A stretch of 64,000 nucleotides of DNA. It comes from Pseudomonas sp. 7SR1 (GTDB lineage: Bacteria; Pseudomonadota; Gammaproteobacteria; Pseudomonadales; Pseudomonadaceae). Made by a program: the position numbers and the translations under genes. The number at the start of each line of letters is the position of its first letter. The stretch's first letter is position 1. The notes beneath the pieces are model-generated. The model saw nothing but the letters and a program-made list of their open reading frames with translations. It did not search any database and was not told the origin of the DNA. The stretch is taken from assembly GCF_900156465.1 (NCBI RefSeq), contig NZ_LT707064.1:4479001-4543000 (forward strand), given 5' to 3'. Of this stretch, positions 47,837 through 59,308 are shown in pieces.

Positions 47837-48214
47837 TCAGCCTCCTGAACTTTCAATCAGCATGGCGCGCAAGCGTTGGCGTTGTTCTTCGAGTGCATCG
47901 ATCTGTCGTTCGAGCCTCGCCAGCCGCTTGCGTTGAGTCTCGGTGATGTCCGCGCAGGCTTTCGCTCCTTCGATCAACAGCATGCAATCGGGAAAGCTGC
48001 GGATTTCATCCAGGCTGAAGCCCGTGGCGATCAGGCGCTGGATCTGCTTCACCTGGGTGATGGCTTTTTCCGGGAACGCCCGGTAGCCATTTTCGCTTCG
48101 CGTGGAGGCCAGCAGGCCATGCTGATCATAATGACGAATCGAGCGCACGCTGACGCCGGTGGCCCGGGCCAGGGCACCGATCTTGAGCACGGTGGGGGGC
48201 GATATCTGGTTCAT
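47837..48214 (-). CDS. MerR-family transcriptional regulator
   Basis: A 125-residue regulator starting MNQISPPTVLKIGALARA. The DNA-binding domain is GVSVRSIRHYDQHGLLASTRSENGYR, followed by a coiled-coil dimerisation helix (residues about 80-120, ETQRKRLARLERQIDALEEQ). The short C-terminus has one or two cysteines but no metal loop. It is divergent from a secreted hydrolase gene, with a TGACA/TGTCA palindrome in the shared promoter. Confidence 0.9.
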   Translation of the reverse strand: MNQISPPTVLKIGALARATGVSVRSIRHYDQHGLLASTRSENGYRAFPEKAITQVKQIQRLIATGFSLDEIRSFPDCMLLIEGAKACADITETQRKRLARLERQIDALEEQRQRLRAMLIESSGG

Positions 48215-48236
48215 GGGCGAACGATAGCATTGCGGC

Positions 48237-48257
48237 TTGACTGTGACACTAATGTCA
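48237..48257 (+). promoter_or_regulatory. MerR-type operator with -35 element
   Basis: A TTGACT -35-like hexamer at 48237 is followed by the palindrome TGACACTAATGTCA (48244-48257), the arrangement MerR proteins use between -35 and -10 elements. It lies between the MerR gene and the divergent hydrolase gene. Confidence 0.6.
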
Positions 48258-48298
48258 GGGTCCAGGCTGTGCTCTTTCAATACTTGAGGAGCTTGAAC

Positions 48299-49213
48299 AT
48301 GATGTCGTTCAAATGCATCAACCACGGGCGCAGCTGGCTGGCTGGCCTGCTGCTGATGGGCGCGTCCTGGCTGGCACAGGCCGCCGTGCAACCGTATACC
48401 GTGACGGCGCCTGACGGTGTGTCCATCGCGGTGCAAGAGGCGGGGGACCCGAACGGTCAGCCCATCATCTTCATTCATGGCTTGCTGGGCAGTCATCTGA
48501 GCTGGGAAAAACAAGTCGAGAGCCCTGAGCTTCAGCGTTATCGCCTGATCACCTACGACCTGCGTGGGCATGGGCGTTCCGGCCAACCCGGGGAGGGCGA
48601 TGCCTACAGCGACGGACGACGTTGGGCCGATGACCTGGCGGCGGTGATCGCAGGATCAGGCGCCCGACGCCCCGTCTTGGTGGGATGGTCCCTGGGGGCT
48701 GCCGTAGCGACCAACTACCTGGCCGCCTATGGCGACGAGAAGATCGCCGGCGCCGTTTACGTCGGCGGCGTCATTGAGCTCAAGCCTGATCAGATCGTTG
48801 CGCACCCCTCTGTGTACAGCGGCATGACGTCGCCTGATCTCAAGACCCACCTCGATGCCGAGCGTGAGTTCGTCGCGCTGTGTTTCGCCACACGGCCTGA
48901 TGCCGATACTTTCCAGCGTTTGTTGGCCAATGCGGCCATGGCTTCCGAAAACATGCAGAAAGCCGTGCATGGCATGTCGCTGGACGCCCCCAAGGGCCTG
49001 GGTGCGATGCACAAGCCGTTGCTCTTGATTTATGGGGCGCGTGACGCCCTGGTGCAGGCCGAACCGTCCTTCAATCGCGCCAAGGCGTTGAACCCCAGCG
49101 TCCTCGGCAAGTTCTACCCGAGTTCGGGGCATTCTCCCTTTCTGGAAGAGGCGCAGCGGTTCAATCATGACCTGTCTGCGTTCGTTGACGCTGCGATGCG
49201 CGCTCGGCGATGA
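48299..49213 (+). CDS. secreted alpha/beta hydrolase controlled by MerR
   Basis: A 304-residue hydrolase with a signal peptide (cleavage near AQA|AVQ). It shows IIFIHGLLGSHLSWE, LRGHGRSGQP, the nucleophile serine in LVGWSLGAAV (Ser131), an acid in YGARDAL and the catalytic His in SSGHSPFLEE. This is the pattern of alpha/beta-fold peroxidase/esterase enzymes. GAGGAG precedes two adjacent ATGs at 48299 and 48302. Divergent from, and probably regulated by, the MerR gene. Confidence 0.9.
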   Translation: MMSFKCINHGRSWLAGLLLMGASWLAQAAVQPYTVTAPDGVSIAVQEAGDPNGQPIIFIHGLLGSHLSWEKQVESPELQRYRLITYDLRGHGRSGQPGEGDAYSDGRRWADDLAAVIAGSGARRPVLVGWSLGAAVATNYLAAYGDEKIAGAVYVGGVIELKPDQIVAHPSVYSGMTSPDLKTHLDAEREFVALCFATRPDADTFQRLLANAAMASENMQKAVHGMSLDAPKGLGAMHKPLLLIYGARDALVQAEPSFNRAKALNPSVLGKFYPSSGHSPFLEEAQRFNHDLSAFVDAAMRARR

Positions 49214-49223
49214 AGCCGGCCGC

Positions 49224-50597
49224 TCACAGCTTCAACGGGTATTCGATCACGATGTAAATCCGGTCGATGTCATCCCCGCCCTGAGCGCTGTTGGCCCGAT
49301 GGGACACGTGGGATACCTGCATGGACAAATCCTTGGCCGGCCCGGAGGGCACGATGTAGTGCAGGTCTATATCCCGTTCCCAGTGGCGTCCGCCATCCCC
49401 TTGTTGCGGGACGAACTGGCCGGTGTCCGGGTCGAGTGGGTTATACGCTCCACCTTGGGGGGCATGGGTGCCGTCGATACCGCGACCGGTGACGTAGCGG
49501 GTCATGAATTTCAACCCCGGGACGCCGAAAGCGCCCAGGTCAAGGTCATAGCGGGCCTGCCACGAACGTTCGCCGGCACCGTTGAAATCAGCGTATTTGA
49601 TGGAGTTGGCAAGGTAGATCGAGTCGCCGCCCACAAAGTCGAATGGCGTGTCGCCCTGGATCTTCTGATAGGCCAGCGTGAATCCCTGTGCGCCAAGGGT
49701 GTATTTGCCCGACAGGCTGTACGCAGTGTTATCGATCCTGCCGGACGTAGCGTTGCCGTAATCCCGGGTGTGGTAGACGTTGCTGTCCAGGAAGAACCCG
49801 GATCGCTTCAGATGTGCATTGGCGTAGTACTGACGCCAGGTGTCGGTCAGCTCGGAAGCGTACAGGGCGCCGCCCAGGGGCTGGTCTTCGAAAAATTGGG
49901 TACCGAGAAAACTGATGCTGCCTGGGTCAGTGCTTGCCCCGTAGCCCGTGAAGTCCCCTTCGCTGGTGGAGGCGTCCTGATTCTTGAACGCGGTGAACCG
50001 CCCGGCCTGCACGTGCACATCGTCGAACTCCCGACTGTCGAGCAGAAACCCTGTGGCATATTCCGGTTGCAGGCGTTTGTCGGCGGTGTCGAACACCGGA
50101 GTTTGCACGGTCATTTCACCGTAGGCCAGGGTGGTTCTGGACGAGCGCAGTTTCAACGCGCCACCGGCACTGGAGTATTCGCGCTCACTGCGGCCTTGCG
50201 AATCCAGCGGCAGCAATCCCGTTCCGGAATGCCCTCGGCCGCCATCCAGTTTCAATCCGAGAAAACCATGGGCATCGACACCGAACCCGACAGTGCCGGG
50301 GGTAAAACCGGAGGAAAACGAGGCGATGAAACCTTGGGCCCACTCCTGTTTGTAGTTTTTGTTCGCCGGGGAGGGGGATCGGTAGTCGTTCTGCAGGAAG
50401 AAATTTCGGCTCAGCACGCCGAAGGTCGAGCCGGCCATGACATCCTGCACCGAAGGCTCGGCAGCCAGGGCCGTGGTGCTGGAGCCGATCAGCACCATGG
50501 ATAGCCAGAGTCTGTGCATGGGTTGTGGCCACCGTTGCGTGCAAGCTTCATTGCTGTAAAGGCGCCGGGTTTTCACCGCGTGATTTGTCGTGTGCAT
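49224..50597 (-). CDS. OprD-family outer-membrane porin
   Basis: Substrate-specific porin of about 430-457 residues for small organic acids or amino acids. A signal peptide ends near TALA|AEPS; FGVLSRNFFLQNDYRSP is the typical OprD N-terminus, NAGRFTAF-like VQAGRFTAFKNQD lines loop 3, and the last strand reads IYIVIEYPLKL. An internal ATG at 50519 (MHRLWLSMV) gives a normal signal peptide, while 50597 gives a long n-region; neither has a strong ribosome site. It stands alone; ligand unknown. Confidence 0.9.
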   Translation of the reverse strand: MHTTNHAVKTRRLYSNEACTQRWPQPMHRLWLSMVLIGSSTTALAAEPSVQDVMAGSTFGVLSRNFFLQNDYRSPSPANKNYKQEWAQGFIASFSSGFTPGTVGFGVDAHGFLGLKLDGGRGHSGTGLLPLDSQGRSEREYSSAGGALKLRSSRTTLAYGEMTVQTPVFDTADKRLQPEYATGFLLDSREFDDVHVQAGRFTAFKNQDASTSEGDFTGYGASTDPGSISFLGTQFFEDQPLGGALYASELTDTWRQYYANAHLKRSGFFLDSNVYHTRDYGNATSGRIDNTAYSLSGKYTLGAQGFTLAYQKIQGDTPFDFVGGDSIYLANSIKYADFNGAGERSWQARYDLDLGAFGVPGLKFMTRYVTGRGIDGTHAPQGGAYNPLDPDTGQFVPQQGDGGRHWERDIDLHYIVPSGPAKDLSMQVSHVSHRANSAQGGDDIDRIYIVIEYPLKL

Positions 50598-51331: not shown

Positions 51332-51358
51332 CTGTACAAGAAACTAGTCTTGTACAAG
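51332..51358. promoter_or_regulatory. paired TGTACAAG operator upstream of chalcone-isomerase-like gene
   Basis: CTGTACAAG and the perfect palindrome CTTGTACAAG are spaced so that TGTACAAG recurs after exactly 18 bp (51333 and 51351). The pair ends 27 bases before the gene start. The same pair and spacing occurs in front of the opposite arm of the cluster at 57758-57785. Confidence 0.8.
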
Positions 51359-51385: not shown

Positions 51386-51916
51386 ATGGCAAATCCGGCT
51401 CGTTGGGCCTGCCTCTGCTTGCTGTTGACGGTGATGTCGTCGGCGGCAGCGGACTGGCGCACGACATTGCCCACGGCGCAACGGCTGGGAGGCGGTGATT
51501 TCACCTGGTTTGGCCTGCGCCTCTATACCGCACGGTTGTGGACTGTCGGTCTTGTACATGACTGGAACCAGCCTTTCGCCCTGGAACTGCTTTACCACCG
51601 ATCCATGTCCCGGGACACGCTGGTGCAGGCCAGCCTCGAGGAGATGCGCCGCCTGGGTTCCGGTAGCGTGCTCCCGCAAGACATCACGACCTGGACTGAA
51701 GCCATGGAAGCGGCGTTCGTGGACGTTCGCCCCGGCATGCGGATCACGGGACTGTATCTGCCAGGAGAGGGCTGCCGCTTCTATGTCGACGGCAAGCTCA
51801 GTCGGGAAATTGCCGACCCGGTTTTCGCCCGGGCGTTCTTTTCCATCTGGCTGGATCCCCAGGCCCGAGACCCACAACTGCGTCAACGCCTGCTTGGCCT
51901 GGCTGACAACGACTGA
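51386..51916 (+). CDS. chalcone-isomerase-like periplasmic protein
   Basis: A 176-residue protein with a signal peptide (cleavage near SSAAA|DWR) and the chalcone-isomerase-like pattern: FGLRLYTARLW, FALELLYHRSMSRDTLVQAS, RPGMRITGLYLPGEGCRFYVDGK and ARAFFSIWLDP. The catalytic residues of plant flavonoid isomerases are not expected here; bacterial members probably bind fatty acids. The start is the ATG at 51386 with AGGTG upstream. First gene of a rightward three-gene operon. Confidence 0.87.
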   Translation: MANPARWACLCLLLTVMSSAAADWRTTLPTAQRLGGGDFTWFGLRLYTARLWTVGLVHDWNQPFALELLYHRSMSRDTLVQASLEEMRRLGSGSVLPQDITTWTEAMEAAFVDVRPGMRITGLYLPGEGCRFYVDGKLSREIADPVFARAFFSIWLDPQARDPQLRQRLLGLADND

Positions 51917-51921
51917 GGAAC

Positions 51922-52464
51922 ATGAACATGTACAAAGCGCTTGTGCTGGTAGCCTGCCTGTTTCTGGGCAGTTGCGGCAATGTCGGGGTCGAGCATTACG
52001 CCGGGGAGCAGCCACGTCTGGACCTGGCGGCTTTCTTTTCTCGACCGGTGCAGGCCTGGGGCATGTTCCAGAAGCGCTCCGGGGAGGTGGTCAAGCGCTT
52101 TCATGTGCGTATCGACAGCCGTCGGGAAGGCGAGCAGCTGATCCTCGACGAACATTTCCTCTACAGCGACGGCACGCGTCAGCAACGCACCTGGACGCTG
52201 GTGCCGGATGGCCCGGGCCGGTGGAGCGGCACGGCGGGGGATGTGATTGGCCAGGCCCGCGGCGAAGTAGCCGGCAATGCCCTGCGTTGGCGTTACCGAT
52301 TGGACCTGCCGGTGGACGGAGAACACTGGCAGGTGGATCTGGATGACTGGATGTACCTGATGGATGAGGACACCCTGATCAATCGCTCGAGCATGAGCAA
52401 ACTGGGCGTGGAGATCGGTCAGATCACCTTGTTCTTCCGCCGCCTGCCGGAGGGCACACCATGA
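51922..52464 (+). CDS. DUF3833 lipoprotein
   Basis: A 180-residue lipoprotein: lipobox LFLGSC at residues 14-19, then a beta-rich domain with RFHVRIDSRREG-like and LDEHFLYSDGTRQQRTW segments ending in IDLPVDGEHWQVDLDDWMY. This is the DUF3833 family, nearly always found with Cfa-like and DUF2878 genes. It starts 5 bases after the isomerase-like gene. A lipocalin-like lipid-binding role is a reasonable guess. Confidence 0.88.
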   Translation: MNMYKALVLVACLFLGSCGNVGVEHYAGEQPRLDLAAFFSRPVQAWGMFQKRSGEVVKRFHVRIDSRREGEQLILDEHFLYSDGTRQQRTWTLVPDGPGRWSGTAGDVIGQARGEVAGNALRWRYRLDLPVDGEHWQVDLDDWMYLMDEDTLINRSSMSKLGVEIGQITLFFRRLPEGTP

Positions 52465-52766
52465 ACCTGAACAATCTCGCCGAGCGAGTCACTGCCGGGG
52501 AAGTCCAAGAGCTTGAACTGCTGTCGCTGGAAGGAGGTTTCTACATCCTGCGGGCCCTTACTGGCACGGGGCCGATCACCCTGAGCGATGCGCAGGGGCA
52601 ACCCCTTCGATTGCGCTCCACCACCGAGCTGCGCCAGTTACTGGCGGACATGCCTGCGGTGCCGTGCATGCTGGTGCAGCAAGTGGTGCATGACGAGATG
52701 TGCGGCCTGCGTGATGGCCCCGTTGCACCGCTGCGGGTACCGGTGTCGCTGACGACCCAGTGGTAA
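52461..52766 (+). CDS. DUF6482 family small protein
   Basis: A 101-residue soluble protein starting MNLNNLAERVTAGEVQELEL, with GGFYILRAL and a VPCMLVQQVVHDEMCGLRDG segment carrying two cysteines. Start overlaps the DUF3833 stop (ATGA type), so it belongs to the same operon. Function unknown. It ends just before the convergent DUF2878 gene. Confidence 0.8.
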   Translation: MNLNNLAERVTAGEVQELELLSLEGGFYILRALTGTGPITLSDAQGQPLRLRSTTELRQLLADMPAVPCMLVQQVVHDEMCGLRDGPVAPLRVPVSLTTQW

Positions 52767-52783
52767 CCGGTGGATGCTGGGGC

Positions 52784-53272
52784 TCAGCGCCACGCCGCGA
52801 TGCGCACCAGCAGCATAAAGACCAATGCCCACACCGCGGATAACAGCAGCGCTGTTTCCACGGTTCCCAGGGGCAGGTCCACATTCGCCAGCCTGGCGCC
52901 GCCCAGATACGCCAATGGCCCCCCAAGGGCACCCAGCAGTGCGCCGCGCCAGATGGGTCGGCCTGCCCAGGCCAGGCTGTGACGCAAGCCGCTGGCCAGC
53001 ACCAGCCACAGCAACCCCAGCCACAAGGGCAGCGGCCTGGCGTCGAAGCTGAACACACCCAGTGCCCCCAGCACGCTGTCGAGCACGCAGCCGGCCAGTG
53101 CGACGCGCAACAGTGCCTTGGCCTCGGCAGCCAAGTCCGGGCAAAGCCACAGGTGCACTGCCAGGCCGAGGGGTACCAGGAGCAACAGCCAGGGGCGCTG
53201 CGCGCCCAGGACGCAGATCCACCAGCCGGCCTGCAGCCAAAGGGCGTTGCCGATCAGCCAGTATCCGGGCAT
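52784..53272 (-). CDS. DUF2878 integral membrane protein
   Basis: A 162-residue inner-membrane protein with four to five hydrophobic segments, starting MPGYWLIGNALWLQAGWW, and with DSVLGALGVFSFD in the centre, typical of DUF2878. The ATG at 53272 overlaps the methyltransferase stop. It is the last gene of the leftward operon. Function unknown, but the family is consistently linked with Cfa-like enzymes. Confidence 0.87.
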   Translation of the reverse strand: MPGYWLIGNALWLQAGWWICVLGAQRPWLLLLVPLGLAVHLWLCPDLAAEAKALLRVALAGCVLDSVLGALGVFSFDARPLPLWLGLLWLVLASGLRHSLAWAGRPIWRGALLGALGGPLAYLGGARLANVDLPLGTVETALLLSAVWALVFMLLVRIAAWR

Positions 53273-54534
53273 CAGGCTGGCCCGGACATTGGCGCGCGCC
53301 GTGCCTGGGGCGCCGCCCACAACAGTTGTGCCACACCGATGGCACGCTCCTCGAAGCCGCCCTGGCAATAACACAGGTAGAACTCCCACAGGCGCTGGAA
53401 TGTATCGTCGTAGCCCAGCGTGGTCAGCTCGGCACGGGCATGGCGCAGGTTATCGCGCCAATGTTCCAGGGTGCGGGCGTAGTCCAGGCCGAAGTCCTCC
53501 AGGTGCACGAGGTTGAGCGGGGTGTGCCGGCTGGCGGTGTCCAGCATCACGCTCAGCGAGGGCAGGGCGCCGCCAGGGAAAATGTAGCGCTGGATGAAAT
53601 CCACCGAGCGCCTTGCCTGGGCGTAGCGCTGGTCGCGGATGGTGATGGCTTGCAACAGCATGAGTCCATCGGGCTTGAGCAGTGCCGCACACTGGCGGAA
53701 ATACACCGGCAGATAGCGGTGCCCGACAGCCTCGATCATTTCGATCGAGACGAGTTTGTCGAAGGTTCCTTCAAGGTCACGATAATCTTCACGCAGCACC
53801 GTCACCCGCGCCTCCAACCCCAACGCCTGAACACGCTGCAGGGTATGAGCGTACTGCGCCTCGGAAAGCGTCGTGGTGGTGACCCGGCAGCCATGGCGGG
53901 TGGCGGCGTGGATCGCCAGGCTGCCCCAACCACACCCGATTTCCAGCAGATGATCGCCGGGGTGTAATTCGAGTTTCTGGCAGATGCGCTCCAGTTTGTT
54001 CAACTGGGCCTGTTCCAGGGGCTGCCCGGGGTGTTCGAACTGGGCGGCCGAATACATCATGGTCGGATCCAGCAGCCGTTCGAACAGGGCGTTGCCCAGG
54101 TCGTAGTGGGCCAGGATATTGCGTCGTGAACCGCGCTTGCTGTTGCGGTTCAACCGGTGCAGCAAACGCAGGGCCGGACGGCCGAAGCGTGCCAGGCCAC
54201 CTTCCAGGGCATCGAGCACGTCCAGGTTGGCGACGAACAGGCGGGTCACCCGTGCCAGGTCCGGGCTGCGCCAGTAGCCATGGATGTAGGCCTCGCCGGC
54301 ACCGATCGAGCCATTGCCGGCGATCATGCTCCAGGCGGTGTCATCCAGGACCTCCACTTCGGCCTGCAAAGCGCTGTCGGCATCGCCAAAATTCCACTGC
54401 TGTCCGTGGCTGAGCAGGCGCAGATGGCCGTGGCGCAGTTTGCCCAGTTGGGCGAGCACAGCGGTTCGCGCGAGGCCGCCGAGCAGAGGCGCCAGGCCCG
54501 CGGACTTGCTAACGCTCAGGGTAGGATTCGACAT
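53272..54534 (-). CDS. cyclopropane-fatty-acid synthase-like SAM methyltransferase
   Basis: A 420-residue Cfa/UfaM-type enzyme that transfers a methyl or methylene group to unsaturated acyl chains of membrane phospholipids. SAM site LLEIGCGWGSLAIHAA, NILAHYDLGNALFERLLDPTMMYS upstream of it, and IEMIEAVGHRYLPVYF are canonical. The chosen ATG (54534) overlaps the DUF1365 gene end by 26 bases. With the DUF1365 and flavin oxidoreductase genes it forms the core seen in light- or singlet-oxygen-induced lipid clusters. Whether the product is a cyclopropane, methylated or furan fatty acid is not determined. Confidence 0.92.
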   Translation of the reverse strand: MSNPTLSVSKSAGLAPLLGGLARTAVLAQLGKLRHGHLRLLSHGQQWNFGDADSALQAEVEVLDDTAWSMIAGNGSIGAGEAYIHGYWRSPDLARVTRLFVANLDVLDALEGGLARFGRPALRLLHRLNRNSKRGSRRNILAHYDLGNALFERLLDPTMMYSAAQFEHPGQPLEQAQLNKLERICQKLELHPGDHLLEIGCGWGSLAIHAATRHGCRVTTTTLSEAQYAHTLQRVQALGLEARVTVLREDYRDLEGTFDKLVSIEMIEAVGHRYLPVYFRQCAALLKPDGLMLLQAITIRDQRYAQARRSVDFIQRYIFPGGALPSLSVMLDTASRHTPLNLVHLEDFGLDYARTLEHWRDNLRHARAELTTLGYDDTFQRLWEFYLCYCQGGFEERAIGVAQLLWAAPQARRAPMSGPA

Positions 54535-55318
54535 GATCGGGATTCTCGCAAGGTTGGCCGAGCGCCAGGTTGCCCCGGCGGGTCGTGTGGTCATGGATAG
54601 GGGTACGTTTGAACAACAGGCGCAGGGCTTGCCAGTAGATGGCCGAGACGGTGCGCAGGCTCATCCAGGGGAAGGCCAGGATGTATCGATGCAGTGCCTT
54701 TCGCTCCAGCGGTTGGCGGTGCAAGGCGAGGTCGGCCTCGAAGACCTTGTCGGCGCCTTGCCAGTTCTCCATGTGGATGCGGACGCGCTCCTCGTCCAGG
54801 ACGAATCGCAGGCGATACTCCATGTCCAACGGCATGAACGGCGACACATGGAAAGCCTTGGCCATGGCGAATGACTTCGCATGAGCGTCTTGCACCGGCA
54901 GTACATAGTGAAAACGTTCATGCCAGGGGGTGTTGCGCACTTCCAGCAGGATCGCCGTCAGATGCCCGTCCCGGTCATGGCAAAAATAGAAACTCACCGG
55001 GTTGAACGACAGCCCCCAGCAACGCAGTTGGGTGAGCAAGCGGACCGGGCCCTCGGGCATCTGTCCCGTGGCCTGACCGACCAGCAGGCGGGCAGCCTGG
55101 GCCAGCGATTCACCCTGGCGGGTCAGCGCCGGCAGGTAGTCGGTCTCGCGCCAGCTCAGGGGCGCCAGGCGCCGACGCCCCAGCCACCGAGACAGGCCCA
55201 GCAGCCAGGTTTGCTCGTCCAGGTCCAGGTAAAACATGCCGGTCCGGTAGCGAAAAGCATGGCGTCGCGGCGACAGGCGCCGATGGCTGATCCAGCCCAG
55301 GCAAAGGCTGCTGTTCAC
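54509..55318 (-). CDS. DUF1365 family protein
   Basis: A 269-residue protein starting MNSSLCLGWISHRRLSPRRH, with FRYRTGMFYLDLDE, GLSFNPVSFYFCHD, and FHVSPFMPLDMEYRL, which define DUF1365. It usually sits between a flavin amine-oxidase-like gene and a Cfa-like gene, exactly as here. The start overlaps the oxidoreductase stop (ATGA type). Presumed to act in modifying unsaturated acyl chains; the reaction is unknown. Confidence 0.92.
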   Translation of the reverse strand: MNSSLCLGWISHRRLSPRRHAFRYRTGMFYLDLDEQTWLLGLSRWLGRRRLAPLSWRETDYLPALTRQGESLAQAARLLVGQATGQMPEGPVRLLTQLRCWGLSFNPVSFYFCHDRDGHLTAILLEVRNTPWHERFHYVLPVQDAHAKSFAMAKAFHVSPFMPLDMEYRLRFVLDEERVRIHMENWQGADKVFEADLALHRQPLERKALHRYILAFPWMSLRTVSAIYWQALRLLFKRTPIHDHTTRRGNLALGQPCENPDHVESYPER

Positions 55319-56562
55319 AATGATTCTCCGAAGTGCTCAGCCACCTTCAGAGCACTGACCACGCCGTCTTCGTGAAAACCGTTGCCCCAGTAGGCGCCAC
55401 AGTAATAAGTGAACTGCTGGCCCTGCAGCTCCGCCTGGCGCGCCTGTGCGGCGGAGGCCGCCAGGCTGTACTGCGGATGGGCGTACTGGAAGCGGGCGAT
55501 GATTTTCGCTGGATCCACGAGCGCCGTCTGGTTGAGGCTCACGCAGAAGGTCTCCGGCGCCTGGAGGCCTTGCAGGATGTTCATGTTGTAGGTCACTGCG
55601 GCCGGAGCCTGCTCGGTGCCGCCGAGGCGGTAGTTCCAGCTGGCCCAGGCCCGGCTTCGGCTTGGCAGCAGGCGGGTATCGGTGTGCAGCACTACATCGT
55701 TGTCGGCATAGCCGATGGCGCCCAGCACGGCTCGTTCTTGCAGGCTGGGCGCTTCCAGCAGCGCCAGGGCCTGGTCGCTATGGCAGGCGAACACCACGTT
55801 GTCGAAGCGTTCGGTGCCGGCGGCGCTGACAAGAGTGACGCCTCCTTCGTCACGGCTGACGCGCAGGACTTTGCAACCGAGGCGGATCCGTTCGGCAAAC
55901 GGCCGGCACAGCGGGGCTACATAGCTACGCGATCCGCCCTGGATAACCCGCCATTGCGGACGATCATTCACCGACAGCAAACCGTGGTTGCGACAGAAAC
56001 GCACGAAGAACTGCAAGGGGAAGCCGAGCATGTCAGCCCGAGACATGGACCAGATGGCCGACCCCATCGGCACGATGTAATGGTCGATGAAGCGGTGCCC
56101 GTATCCTTGGGCCTGCAGGTACGCACCCAGGGTGGTGTCGGTATCGATACGCTGACTGTCCAGGTCGGCCAGGGCCTGGCGGTTGAAGCGCAGGATATCG
56201 CGCAGCATCCTCCAGAACCCCGGGGATACGAGATTGCGCCGTTGGGCGAACAGGGTGTTCAGGTCGTGGCCGTTGTATTCCAGGCCTGTGAGCGGATCAT
56301 GGACAGAGAAGCTCATCTCGGTCGGCTGTGAGGTCACCTCGAGCTGATCGAGCAAACGGATGAAGTTCGGATAGGTCCAGTCGTTGAATACGATGAAGCC
56401 GGTATCTATGGCATAGGGCTGACCACGCCAGATTACATCGACGGTATGGGTGTGGCCGCCGATCCATTCGGCGGCCTCGAACACCGTCACCTCGTGTTTG
56501 CGTGACAGCAAGTGGGCACAGGTCAGGCCCGCGATGCCACTGCCAATAATCGCTATGCGCAT
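55315..56562 (-). CDS. FAD-dependent amine-oxidase-like oxidoreductase
   Basis: A 415-residue NAD(P)/FAD protein: IAIIGSGIAGLTCAHLLSRK at the N-terminus, EAAEWIGGHTHTVDV, and FTYYCGAYWGNGFHEDGVVSAL at the C-terminus, as in the phytoene-desaturase-like proteins next to cfa genes. Partner of the DUF1365 and methyltransferase genes in one overlapping operon. It may oxidise the methylated acyl chain. Function assigned by context. Confidence 0.9.
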   Translation of the reverse strand: MRIAIIGSGIAGLTCAHLLSRKHEVTVFEAAEWIGGHTHTVDVIWRGQPYAIDTGFIVFNDWTYPNFIRLLDQLEVTSQPTEMSFSVHDPLTGLEYNGHDLNTLFAQRRNLVSPGFWRMLRDILRFNRQALADLDSQRIDTDTTLGAYLQAQGYGHRFIDHYIVPMGSAIWSMSRADMLGFPLQFFVRFCRNHGLLSVNDRPQWRVIQGGSRSYVAPLCRPFAERIRLGCKVLRVSRDEGGVTLVSAAGTERFDNVVFACHSDQALALLEAPSLQERAVLGAIGYADNDVVLHTDTRLLPSRSRAWASWNYRLGGTEQAPAAVTYNMNILQGLQAPETFCVSLNQTALVDPAKIIARFQYAHPQYSLAASAAQARQAELQGQQFTYYCGAYWGNGFHEDGVVSALKVAEHFGESL

Positions 56563-56568
56563 TGATCG

Positions 56569-57321
56569 TTATTCCTGTTCATGACGGGCCAGGCGTTGAC
56601 CGAGAGCCAGACGCAGGCGCGCGGGCAGCGCCCCGAGCAGGCGCAGCACCAGGGTGAAAATGCCGGGGAAATTGATCTCCAACGGGCGTCTGGGCAGACG
56701 CCGGGCGATGTGTGTGGCGGCACGCTGCGCCGACCACAGCAGGGGCATGGGGAAGTCGTTGCGGCGCGTCAGCGGCGTGTCGACGAAGCCGGGGCTGACC
56801 AGGGTGACGTCGATGCCCTCGCGGGCCAGGTCGATGCGCTGTGACTCCACCAGATAGCGCACCGCGGCCTTGGAGGCCCCATAGGCACCGGCCCGGGGCA
56901 AGGCCAGCCAGGTCACGGAGCTGCCCATCACCACCAGGTGGGGGCGTTGGCCGGCGCGAAGCAAGGGGAGGGCCGCCGCCAGACAGTAGCTGACGCCCAG
57001 CAGATTGGTGCGCAACACACGCTCGACCACGGCCGGGTCGAACTGGCCCGGCTCCAGGTACTCGCAGGTGCCAGCGTTGAGGACCGCCATGTCCAGCGCC
57101 CCCCAGGCCTGCTCGATCCGGGCGGCGATTCCGGCAACCTGCTGCGGGTCGTCCAGATCGCCGATGGCCAGCAATACCTGCCCCGGAAAGCGTTCAGCCA
57201 AAGGAGCAAGGCGATCGGCGCAGCGACCACCCAGTGCGACCTGATGACCTTGCTCCAGCAGGCTTTGCGCCAGGGCGGCACCGATACCGCTGCTGGCGCC
57301 GGTCAGCCAACAGCGGCTCAT
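56569..57321 (-). CDS. short-chain dehydrogenase/reductase
   Basis: A 250-residue SDR: cofactor motif WLTGASSGIGAALAQ, NAG in AVLNAGTCEY, catalytic Ser in MGSSVTWLALP, and YGASKAAVRYLVES with the Tyr-x3-Lys pair. The C-terminal extension (EINFPGIFTLVLRLLGALPARLR) is hydrophobic, suggesting membrane association. Start overlaps the NTF2-like stop. It belongs to the lipid operon and may act on acyl intermediates. Confidence 0.92.
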   Translation of the reverse strand: MSRCWLTGASSGIGAALAQSLLEQGHQVALGGRCADRLAPLAERFPGQVLLAIGDLDDPQQVAGIAARIEQAWGALDMAVLNAGTCEYLEPGQFDPAVVERVLRTNLLGVSYCLAAALPLLRAGQRPHLVVMGSSVTWLALPRAGAYGASKAAVRYLVESQRIDLAREGIDVTLVSPGFVDTPLTRRNDFPMPLLWSAQRAATHIARRLPRRPLEINFPGIFTLVLRLLGALPARLRLALGQRLARHEQE

Positions 57322-57740
57322 GCCAGCCTGCCTTTGAGCCAGCGGATTGCGCCGCCCATGACGGGAATGTGTTCGTAAAGCAGGGCGCCAGCGTCGAAAT
57401 AATCCTGGTGGAAGTGGACACGGTCATGCCACTGCAAGTGACTGCATCCCTGCAAGGTGATCTGTTGTCCATGGGCCAGGCGTGAATGGCGGAACTGCAG
57501 GGTCCAGCGCAGGTAACCCTGCCCGGGCTGCACTTCGTCCGTGCCGCTGATGAGGTAGCGGATATCCTCTGCGTTGGCGTACAACTGGGCGAAATAGGCC
57601 CGCAGGTCCTGCAATCCGCGAATATGGTGCAGAGGGTCGCAGAAGACGACATCTTCACTGTACAGCTTTTCCAGCGTGTCGAGGTTATCCCCATCGAGGC
57701 TGGCGAAGCGCTCGGCGAATTGCTGCAGATAGGCTGACAT
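57318..57740 (-). CDS. NTF2/SnoaL-like protein
   Basis: A 140-residue cone-fold protein starting MSAYLQQFAERFASLDGD, with LEKLYSEDVVFCDPLHHIRGLQDLRAYFAQLY and MGGAIRWLKGRLA. The family includes isomerases and binding proteins. It is the first gene of the six-gene leftward operon (NTF2-like, SDR, flavin oxidoreductase, DUF1365, Cfa-like, DUF2878), transcribed from the region with two TGTACA operator pairs. Confidence 0.9.
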   Translation of the reverse strand: MSAYLQQFAERFASLDGDNLDTLEKLYSEDVVFCDPLHHIRGLQDLRAYFAQLYANAEDIRYLISGTDEVQPGQGYLRWTLQFRHSRLAHGQQITLQGCSHLQWHDRVHFHQDYFDAGALLYEHIPVMGGAIRWLKGRLA

Positions 57741-57757
57741 GGGTGGCTCCGGGCAAT

Positions 57758-57836
57758 CTTGTACAAGAAAGAATATCTGTACAAGTATTGCTGAAGCCTA
57801 AGGCTAAATCTGTACAAGTCAATGGCTTTGTACAGT
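57758..57836. promoter_or_regulatory. two paired TGTACA operators upstream of the lipid operon
   Basis: TGTACAAG occurs at 57760 and 57778, and again at 57811 with TGTACAGT at 57829: two pairs, each with 18-bp spacing. The pair nearer the gene has the perfect palindrome CTTGTACAAG on the gene-proximal side, as at 51332-51358. They are probable sites for the LitR-like MerR regulator encoded nearby. Confidence 0.8.
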
Positions 57837-57845
57837 TATTTTGAG

Positions 57846-58292
57846 TCAGCGTTTGACTGCGTCCAGTTGGCGGCGCAATTCAGCGACTTCTGCCTCCAGT
57901 TCGCGGACCTTCTCTTCGGCCGATATCTGCGCGGTGACGTCACGCTGGATGCCGATGTAATAGGTCAACTGATCCGCCTCATTGTGCACGGGCGTGATGG
58001 ACAGTTCGTTCCAGAACAGGCTGCCATCCTTGCGGTAGTTACGCAGCACCTGGCGGCAGGGCCGGCGTTCGCGAATCGCCTGGCGGATGGTCGCGATGCC
58101 CGCCTGGTCATGATCCTGGCCCTGGAGAAAACGGCAATCCTGATAGAGGATGTCGTCGGCGCTATAACCGGTGAGGCGCTCGAAGGCAGGGTTGGTGTAG
58201 ATGAGGATGCTCTCGTGGCCCTCCTGCTCGGCGACGACGATGCCATCGTTGGAGTGCTCGACCATCAATTGCAGGAGTTTGGCGTCGATCAT
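57846..58292 (-). CDS. short LOV blue-light photoreceptor, PpSB1-LOV-like
   Basis: A 148-residue single-domain LOV protein that binds FMN and forms a cysteinyl adduct in blue light. The adduct motif is QDCRFLQG with the photoactive Cys53 (same number as in PpSB1-LOV of P. putida), and the FMN-contact segments TNPAFERLTGY, NYRKDGSLFWNELSITPV and YYIGIQRDVT are intact. A C-terminal coiled coil (ISAEEKVRELEAEVAELRRQ) replaces any effector domain. The ATG at 58292 is preferred over a GTG at 58301, as it matches the short-LOV N-terminus (MIDAKLLQ). It lies beside a LitR-like regulator and the lipid cluster, and is probably the light input. Confidence 0.92.
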   Translation of the reverse strand: MIDAKLLQLMVEHSNDGIVVAEQEGHESILIYTNPAFERLTGYSADDILYQDCRFLQGQDHDQAGIATIRQAIRERRPCRQVLRNYRKDGSLFWNELSITPVHNEADQLTYYIGIQRDVTAQISAEEKVRELEAEVAELRRQLDAVKR

Positions 58293-58420
58293 GGGGGTCA
58301 CCTACAGGATTATGCGGCGCTATGCGAAGCGCCGAGGCGGTTCGCTACATGATGACCTACGCAGGCTCGCCGCAAAAGGTATCTATGGGTTTAGAATGTG
58401 CCACCCTTCGGAAAACCACT

Positions 58421-59308
58421 ATGACTCAAACCCCTTCACCCGATCTGCTGCCCATGCGGGATGTGGTCAGCCTGACCGGCATCAATCCGGTGACGCTGCG
58501 TGCCTGGGAGCGGCGCCATGGGCTGATTCGCCCGCAACGCACCGACGGTGGGCATCGGCTGTACACGCCCGACGATGTCCAACGGATACGCGATATCCTG
58601 CGCTGGACTTCCGATGGCCTGCCCATCAGCAAGGTCGGCGAAATGCTCCAGGGCGAACGCGATGAGCCCCCTCGGCAACTCAATGCCATCCAGGATTGGC
58701 GCGCCGCCGTATTACGCGCCACGAAGGCATTCGATATCCAAGCGCTGGAAGAGACTTATCAGCAACTGTTCACGCTCCTGCCCAGGGCAACGGCATTGCG
58801 TGAAGTGTTGATGCCGGCCTGGCACGAGCTGTCATCAGGCAGCGCGTTTGGCGAGTGCAGTCAATGGCTGCTGCTCGATACCTTCCTGCGCGCTCGCCTC
58901 ATGCTGCGCTTGCAGATGAACCAGGTCGAAGCCCCGCGCGTACTGCTGGCGGGCACCGAAGGGCATGCCGAGTTGCAACTGCTGTGCGCCGGTGTGCTGT
59001 TGAGCGGTAGGCAACAACGCATCGAAGTGCTCGGCTGTGGGCAACCACTGGAGGAGCTCCCCTTGCTCTGCGCGGCGATCCAGCCTGCTGCGCTGGTGAT
59101 TGCGGTACAGGCACCAGTGAGCCCGATCCTGGCCAAGCGGCTGCGTTCGTTGCAGATGGAAATCGCCTGTCCACTGGCCCTGACAGGGGCGGGATCGGCG
59201 GGTTCGCAGGCTGCCTTGCAAGGTATTCCGCTGTGTCTGTTGAACGAGCAGGACGCCGATGTGGCAGGGGTGCTCAGTGCCTTGATCAAGGGCACCCTGG
59301 ACCTTTGA
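58421..59308 (+). CDS. LitR-like MerR-family regulator lacking a clear B12-binding motif
   Basis: A 295-residue protein with an N-terminal MerR domain (MRDVVSLTGINPVTLRAWER, then DGGHRLYTPDDVQRI) and a C-terminal half shaped like the helical-plus-B12-binding fold of CarH/LitR. The DxHxxG cobalamin signature is not found; GTEGHAELQLL is the nearest segment. It therefore resembles class II LitR proteins (PplR-like) of P. putida, which control light-induced genes together with a short LOV protein. It is divergent from the LOV gene. The paired TGTACA sites are its likely targets. Confidence 0.85.
   Translation: MTQTPSPDLLPMRDVVSLTGINPVTLRAWERRHGLIRPQRTDGGHRLYTPDDVQRIRDILRWTSDGLPISKVGEMLQGERDEPPRQLNAIQDWRAAVLRATKAFDIQALEETYQQLFTLLPRATALREVLMPAWHELSSGSAFGECSQWLLLDTFLRARLMLRLQMNQVEAPRVLLAGTEGHAELQLLCAGVLLSGRQQRIEVLGCGQPLEELPLLCAAIQPAALVIAVQAPVSPILAKRLRSLQMEIACPLALTGAGSAGSQAALQGIPLCLLNEQDADVAGVLSALIKGTLDL

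Follow-up and report, generated by a model that had tools for sequence, protein, structure and literature searches.

Which lipid would be made under the control of a blue-light receptor, and which regulator would carry the signal to its genes? The question is raised by a locus in the genome of Pseudomonas sp. 7SR1 (one contig of 6.09 Mb), where nine lipid-type genes stand beside a short LOV photoreceptor and a LitR-like regulator of the MerR family. The window, that is the whole stretch of DNA analysed here, spans 64 kb (genome positions 4479001-4543000), and the locus lies at 51386-59308 within it. Its genes, the operator sequences in front of them and the conservation of both point to a blue-light switch of the PplR/PpSB-LOV kind wired to a furan fatty acid pathway, a reading that we regard as likely. 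Furan fatty acids are an unusual membrane lipid linked to defence against light damage, and the locus would connect a photoreceptor-repressor switch that is already described with one particular predicted lipid, and it offers exact operator sites.

Sensor and regulator at the locus

Translations of the open reading frames (ORFs) and a Pfam scan resolve the locus into two convergent lipid-type units and a sensor pair (Table 1). The minus-strand unit runs from SnoaL through a short-chain dehydrogenase (SDR), a flavin adenine dinucleotide (FAD) oxidase, DUF1365 and a Cfa-like methylase to DUF2878, with gene ends that overlap or nearly touch, while the plus-strand unit of Chalcone_3, DUF3833 and DUF6482 ends 17 bases from the 3' end of the minus unit. 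The LOV gene lies on the minus strand upstream of SnoaL, and the MerR gene is divergent from it. The nine lipid-type genes, the Cys53 LOV and the MerR/LitR gene that a preliminary description of this DNA had listed are all present in the ORFs and Pfam results, and its bounds (the Chalcone_3 ATG at 51386 and the MerR stop at 59308) are correct.

The LOV protein has 148 amino acids, carries Cys53 and is devoid of an effector domain. It had been called PpSB1-LOV-like, yet it belongs to the PpSB2 type, because residues 61 and 66 are His and Ile and because its nearest solved structure is 7A6P (281 bits; identity in Table 1) rather than 3SW1, which is PpSB1-LOV (196 bits). Residues 61/66, which are not the Arg61/Arg66 of the PpSB1 type, and the bit scores rule out the PpSB1 assignment. 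7A6P is PpSB2-LOV; PpSB2, with His61/Ile66, recovers in ~2 min, compared with ~2400 min for PpSB1, with Arg61/Arg66 (PMC13322254). By analogy, fast recovery is expected of the window protein. A second short LOV gene of the genome (539870-540301) encodes a protein that is 58% identical to it, with Arg61/Leu66 and Cys53 kept. Among LOV relatives in other genomes, of which the best 80 of at least 476 were kept, Cys53 is conserved in 80/80 loci and residues 61 and 66 vary.

The MerR protein aligns to CarH over residues 10-263 (E 2.5e-17). It lacks the [DE]xHxxG B12 motif and has no Pfam match to a B12 domain, although the CarH alignment runs through the four-helix B12-binding_2 region; this domain is detected by Pfam in the paralogue of the protein in locus L109. 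The CarH segment around the histidine that we take to be the B12 ligand is not conserved. The motif is likewise absent from all other LitR-like proteins compared, some of which are clipped at the locus end; on this absence of the motif from the window protein and from these, B12-based sensing was rejected. With a MerR DNA-binding domain, a CarH-like C-terminal half and no B12 motif, the protein is a class II LitR, as the earlier wording of a LitR-like MerR protein without a B12 motif had it. Two further LitR-like genes are found in the genome (541112, 39%; 2623706, 29%). P. putida KT2440 has three LitR and two short LOV genes, the same set as the window genome (PMC9758184).

Operators at the lipid promoters

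The consensus published for PplR1 is T(G/A)TACA-N12-TGTA(C/T)A, and footprints of PmlR2 cover two such sites, one over the -35 element and the other between transcription start and ATG (PMC9758184). Three exact operators occur in the window, all at the two lipid promoters, in addition to three sites with two mismatches, compared with 1.13 expected for up to two mismatches. The whole genome holds seven exact operators, three of them at the two lipid promoters, and none of a backwards control pattern. TTGACT, the -35 hexamer of P. mendocina P6650, stands within site 1 of the minus-strand operon, and the leader position of site 2 also agrees with the P. mendocina footprint. For Chalcone_3 the start at 51386 is preferred because the alternative TTG at 51350 falls within the operator. 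The gap between LOV and MerR holds no operator-like site at up to two mismatches, which by analogy is in line with the constitutive expression of pmlR2 and pmSB-LOV in P. mendocina, whose light response is 0.9-1.5 fold (PMC9758184).

Elsewhere in the genome, an exact operator at 2625543 belongs to a unit of 2-thiouracil desulfurase/DUF1722, PplR1 and photolyase. Another (4677519-4677542; L110:5020-5043) lies in a stretch without a clear gene, and those at 5316243 and 5316556 (L111) have genes for a PAS chemotaxis protein and a sigma54 activator in their vicinity. Judged from their sequence, the operators at 4677519, 5316243 and 5316556 may mark additional light-controlled genes.

Conservation of the union within Pseudomonas

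Is the union of sensor, regulator and lipid genes a chance arrangement of this strain? Among the 80 LOV loci, a LitR-like gene lies within 3.5 kb of LOV in 59, and 26 loci (25 of Pseudomonas and one of a Halothiobacillus metagenome-assembled genome, L069) hold LOV, MerR, UfaD, UfaO and the Cfa-like gene together. The union of LOV, MerR and the core lipid genes is not chance. These 80 loci contain 71 operators, compared with none for the control. Where SnoaL was matched (n=25), two operators precede it in 20 loci and one in five; the paired sites are 51 bp apart in 20/20, and the first base of site 2 lies 42-43 bp before the SnoaL match in these 20. An operator also lies within 200 bp of the Chalcone_3 start in 21 of the 27 loci with that gene. 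Across same-genus genomes, a short LOV is found in 172/199 and UfaO in 146/199. Seventeen same-genus genomes encode a LOV that shares at least 81% identity with that of the window, and in 16 of them LitR, SnoaL, SDR and UfaD adjoin it, with one or two operators; the exceptions recorded among the 17 are L222, which has no cassette at the spot, and L230, in which the LOV match contains a stop codon.

The preliminary description placed its weight on the physical union, and here the comparison reads differently. Eighteen further same-genus loci were hand-picked and are not a random sample. In 13 of them the fetched DNA holds the cassette and no LOV or LitR gene, and SnoaL is preceded by one or two operators in every case. 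LOV and LitR adjoin the cassette in three others, and in the remaining two the cassette stands behind PplR1 and photolyase, where the operator heads the whole longer stretch. One operator code therefore serves three layouts, and physical union is not needed for it. That the operators persist where cassette and sensor genes stand apart is new here.

This bears on a competing account, in which light control is exerted mainly in trans by PplR1-like or PplR3-like regulators and the second LOV, while the neighbouring pair acts elsewhere or fine-tunes the response. The genome holds the two further LitR genes and the further short LOV gene that such control would use, the 13 loci keep their operators with neither protein encoded nearby, and the three PplRs act jointly in P. 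putida (PMC9758184). What speaks against it is that, in same-genus genomes whose LOV is closest to that of the window, LOV and LitR stay beside the operon in 16/17. Control in trans is a serious contender, to which we give somewhat less than an even chance.

Several loci depart from the common arrangement. L016, L031, L037, L038 and L222 have LOV and LitR but lack the UfaD-UfaO-UfaM operon at this position; L016 and L031 retain the Chalcone_3 unit together with its operator, and in the L222 genome the cassette, preceded by two operators, lies ~120 kb off on the same contig (L256). The Halothiobacillus locus (L069:3333-10438) combines UfaD, UfaO, the Cfa-like gene, DUF3833, SDR, LitR and a short LOV in a different gene order and has no exact operator. 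This locus suggested a joint transfer of cassette, LOV and LitR involving Halothiobacillus, an idea that was set aside since identity among the cassette proteins does not exceed 32-44%. Searching plasmids with UfaD returned 146 records, none of which reached 60% identity.

The predicted lipid and the methylase

Homologues of UfaD, UfaO and UfaM stand together in the window as overlapping genes (56562-53272). In the published pathway UfaM, an S-adenosylmethionine (SAM) methylase, UfaD, an FAD desaturase, and UfaO, a DUF1365 protein, convert phospholipid cis-vaccenate to a methylated furan fatty acid, and the three proteins, R. sphaeroides' own or those of R. palustris, suffice for furan fatty acid formation in R. 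sphaeroides (PMC7380195). A Halomonas UfaM yields 11-methyloctadec-12-enoate in E. coli (PMC12089945). As far as family membership can tell, the set in the window predicts a methylated furan fatty acid; the lipid product, which had been left blank in the preliminary description, can thus be given a candidate.

Alternatively, the Cfa-like enzyme could make cyclopropane fatty acids, and the product would be a cyclopropane rather than a furan lipid. The protein does belong to the CMAS family and resembles E. coli Cfa, and cyclic fatty acids are found in E. coli with the Halomonas UfaM, though E. coli has its own Cfa (PMC12089945). The bicarbonate ligands of cyclopropane fatty acid (CFA) synthase are Glu239, His266 and Tyr317 (PMC11387697). 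Compared with E. coli Cfa (6BQC), the window methylase keeps Glu239 and Tyr317 and has Gln in place of His266, as do 69/69 Cfa-like proteins next to UfaO, whereas the second Cfa of the same genome keeps the E. coli-type residues. Cfa-like proteins farther off in the same loci (n=12) have His in 11 cases and Gln in one (L199). In addition, the window methylase scores 270.6, below the NCBIfam Cfa equivalog cut-offs (400 for the best), and UfaD and UfaO share the stretch with it. On account of the score, the replaced His266 and the incomplete set of bicarbonate ligands, its identity as a cyclopropane synthase was rejected, and a cyclopropane product appears unlikely.

In the furan fatty acid reading the replacement itself has a plausible meaning: loss of the histidine would weaken the ring-closing base, and the methylated cation would drop another proton to give a branched olefin. 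The Gln in place of His266 in putative UfaM proteins next to UfaO is new here and, if it holds, would let annotators separate UfaM from cyclopropane synthases of the same Pfam family.

The lipid cassette across Pseudomonadota

DUF1365 occurs in 187/397 Pseudomonadota genomes. From these, 74 cassette loci were sampled, namely 14 of the 15 matches in the own genus and family (the window being left out) and 60 from the list ranked by score, with one locus for each genus; with 114 genera giving a match, high scorers are favoured and many genera are unsampled. Co-occurrence here covers distances of no more than 19.5 kb. UfaD is found with UfaO in all 74 loci, the Cfa-like gene in 71, SDR in 54, SnoaL in 44, photolyase in 31 and DUF3833 in 28. 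For the regulators the counts are 26 for LitR-like MerR, 25 for ChrR, 23 for an extracytoplasmic function (ECF) sigma factor and six for LOV, where the ChrR and ECF families take their names from a Pfam match of a single representative and the LOV label means a blastp match (E 1e-5) to the window LOV that may include other LOV/PAS proteins in L181, L185, L194 and L217. Exact operators occur in 13/21 loci with MerR, 3/5 with MerR and LOV (LOV groups assigned by hand), 1/26 with ChrR or ECF and 0/22 with neither, and the control occurs in none. The cassette thus stands near two kinds of regulator and, in 22/74 loci, near neither. Its frequent position near ECF-ChrR elsewhere in the phylum is new here; furan fatty acid genes have already been described as core ChrR-sigmaE targets (PMC6852236).

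Control by ECF-ChrR in answer to singlet oxygen, on the Rhodobacter model and with light acting only through damage, is the least probable account of the window cassette: the survey counts, two ChrR-cupin genes in the window genome that both match the ChrR profile built from cassette loci, and the Vibrio cholerae blue-light response, which is mediated by both ChrR and a MerR-like protein (PMC5241685), speak for it, while exact LitR operators stand at both promoters, a single one of the 26 ChrR/ECF loci has such an operator, a search confined to the 5.5 kb surrounding each ChrR-cupin gene gave no ECF gene of this family, and the 19 ORFs scanned with Pfam from 47.8 to 63.1 kb include no ECF-ChrR pair. 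The LitR operators and the lack of a nearby ECF gene led us to reject ChrR as the main input; it may still act as a second one.

Perhaps the input of a furan fatty acid module has been swapped in evolution, from damage sensing by ECF-ChrR in many Pseudomonadota to direct sensing of blue light by LOV and a B12-free LitR in Pseudomonas, where the lipid would be made ahead of damage, with the change from His to Gln turning a cyclopropane synthase fold into a methyl-branching enzyme; we hold the evidence for and against this wider view to be evenly balanced. What the survey shows is one lipid cassette that has a damage sensor close by in some bacteria, whereas in others it stands behind operators of light regulators.

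Proposed mechanism and its weak points

How might the switch operate? By analogy with relatives, the LitR-like protein would bind TGTACA-N12-TGTACA operators in the dark and block both promoters, through two sites at the SnoaL-SDR-ufaD-ufaO-ufaM-DUF2878 operon and one at the Chalcone_3-DUF3833-DUF6482 unit. Blue light would form the adduct of Cys53 with flavin mononucleotide (FMN) in LOV, and the lit LOV would serve as an anti-repressor that binds the repressor, frees the promoters and turns both lipid units on. UfaM would then methylate phospholipid-bound cis-vaccenate, UfaD would introduce a second double bond, and UfaO would insert oxygen to give a methylated furan fatty acid able to react with singlet oxygen. 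The earlier proposal of a light-controlled lipid cluster under a short LOV and a LitR-like protein finds good support in homology and in the exact operators at both lipid promoters, and repressor binding, anti-repression and the enzyme activities are argued by analogy with relatives.

Several observations weigh against this mechanism. More than one LOV-LitR pair could exert control, because class II LitR is encoded three times in the genome and short LOV twice, and adjacency does not prove pairing, because of the 13 loci that keep operators without neighbouring LOV or LitR. The -10 element following site 1 is poor, and a scan for consensus promoters gave none at site 1 (two promoter-like sites compared with 1.6 in shuffles). 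An exact operator is present in 14/14 sampled loci of the Pseudomonas family, from which most of the operator signal comes, and in 2/12 MerR-bearing loci of other families, where the operator code may thus have drifted or may not apply. On the side of the lipid, protein family, gene order and co-occurrence are the grounds for the presumed orthology to the Ufa proteins of R. sphaeroides and R. palustris, and the known steps account for three of the nine lipid-type genes and not for the other six (SnoaL, SDR, DUF2878, Chalcone_3, DUF3833 and DUF6482). Deletion of RSP1087-1089, three other genes of the operon, left the fatty acids of R. sphaeroides unchanged, and these genes were dispensable for the furan fatty acid (PMC7380195). 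A literature search found no report of furan fatty acids measured in Pseudomonas, which is weak evidence of absence.

Gene inventory and neighbouring genes

The features of the locus are collected in Table 1. The DUF2878 start and the UfaM stop share one base.

Table 1. Genes and predicted operator sites of the light-switch and lipid locus, in window positions.
Feature	Position	Strand	Basis or remark
Predicted LitR/PplR operator TGTACA-N12-TGTACA, promoter of Chalcone_3-DUF3833-DUF6482 unit	51333..51356	.	exact, 0 mismatches
Chalcone_3 (chalcone isomerase-like) protein	51386..51916	+	PF16036, E 4.2e-12
DUF3833 protein	51922..52464	+	PF12915, E 2.2e-67
DUF6482 protein	52461..52766	+	PF20090, E 7.1e-17
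DUF2878 protein	52784..53272	-	PF11086, E 3.9e-38; ATG 53272-53270 from translation
Predicted UfaM-type SAM-dependent acyl methylase (Cfa-like)	53272..54534	-	PF02353, E 2.7e-87; alternative ATG 54594
UfaO (DUF1365), predicted furan-forming monooxygenase	54509..55318	-	PF07103, E 2.3e-77
UfaD, predicted FAD-dependent acyl desaturase	55315..56562	-	PF01593/PF13450 (amine oxidase)
SDR of lipid operon	56569..57321	-	PF00106, E 1.3e-35
SnoaL-like protein, first gene of lipid operon	57318..57740	-	PF12680, E 3e-12
Predicted operator site 2, lipid operon promoter, expected 5' leader	57760..57783	.	exact match
Predicted operator site 1, contains TTGACT	57811..57834	.	exact match
Short LOV blue-light receptor, PpSB2 type (Cys53, His61, Ile66)	57846..58292	-	129/145 identical to PDB 7A6P
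Class II LitR/CarH-type MerR, predicted repressor, PplR2-like	58421..59308	+	MerR_1, E 3.8e-16

At 47840-50597 of the window, an alpha/beta hydrolase and an OprD-type porin adjoin a second, unrelated MerR regulator (47840-48586, minus strand). A genome search found no PF04244 (CryB-type) gene in the window strain. A PF04244 (CryB-type photolyase-like) gene adjoins the DUF6482/Chalcone_3 unit at L014:15625-17226, as seen in a Pfam run on L014 only; ORFs resembling it are also present in L012, L016 and L031, and L254 gave a tblastn match.

Comparison with known systems

The three predicted lipid enzymes are like UfaM, UfaD and UfaO of R. sphaeroides and R. palustris, a SAM methylase, an FAD desaturase and a DUF1365 oxidase, and the Rhodobacter pathway is linked to photo-oxidative stress. 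The two differ in their input: in Rhodobacter, loss of ChrR and singlet oxygen both raise the pathway (PMC7380195), whereas the window has LitR operators and a LOV.

Closer in regulation is the regulon of P. putida KT2440 with PplR1-3, PpSB1-LOV and PpSB2-LOV, with three class II LitR proteins and two short LOVs, of which PpSB2-LOV is the counterpart of the window LOV; loss of PpSB1- and PpSB2-LOV holds the PplR-dependent genes at a constant low level (PMC9758184). The light regulon of P. putida, with folE2, ufaM and phrB, goes back to Sumi et al. 2020 (reviewed in PMC8508746). The window strain differs in being another genome, in which the CryB-type gene is absent. We presume that the KT2440 gene order PP_2734-PP_2740 is the same as that in the window.

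Closest is PmlR2/PmSB-LOV of P. mendocina NBRC 14162, where a Cys53 short LOV likewise stands beside a class II LitR, with the same operator and the -35 within site 1, and where binding is light-dependent, Cys53 is required and ufaM is induced 25-33 fold by light (PMC9758184). A nine-gene light-induced operon in the pmlR1 region of P. mendocina includes the gene types SDR, FAD oxidase and ufaM found in the window (PMC9758184). The layout differs: in P. mendocina LOV and LitR stand with folM-folE-folX and the lipid genes lie in the pmlR1-phrB region (PMC9758184), whereas in the window strain the lipid genes adjoin LOV and LitR and the PplR1-phrB unit is 1.9 Mb away. The locus had been proposed as a poorly described system, a label that the LOV-LitR switch published for P. 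mendocina no longer allows (PMC9758184). The switch is known in kind, and the operators of the window, the layouts and the UfaM residue are its new detail.

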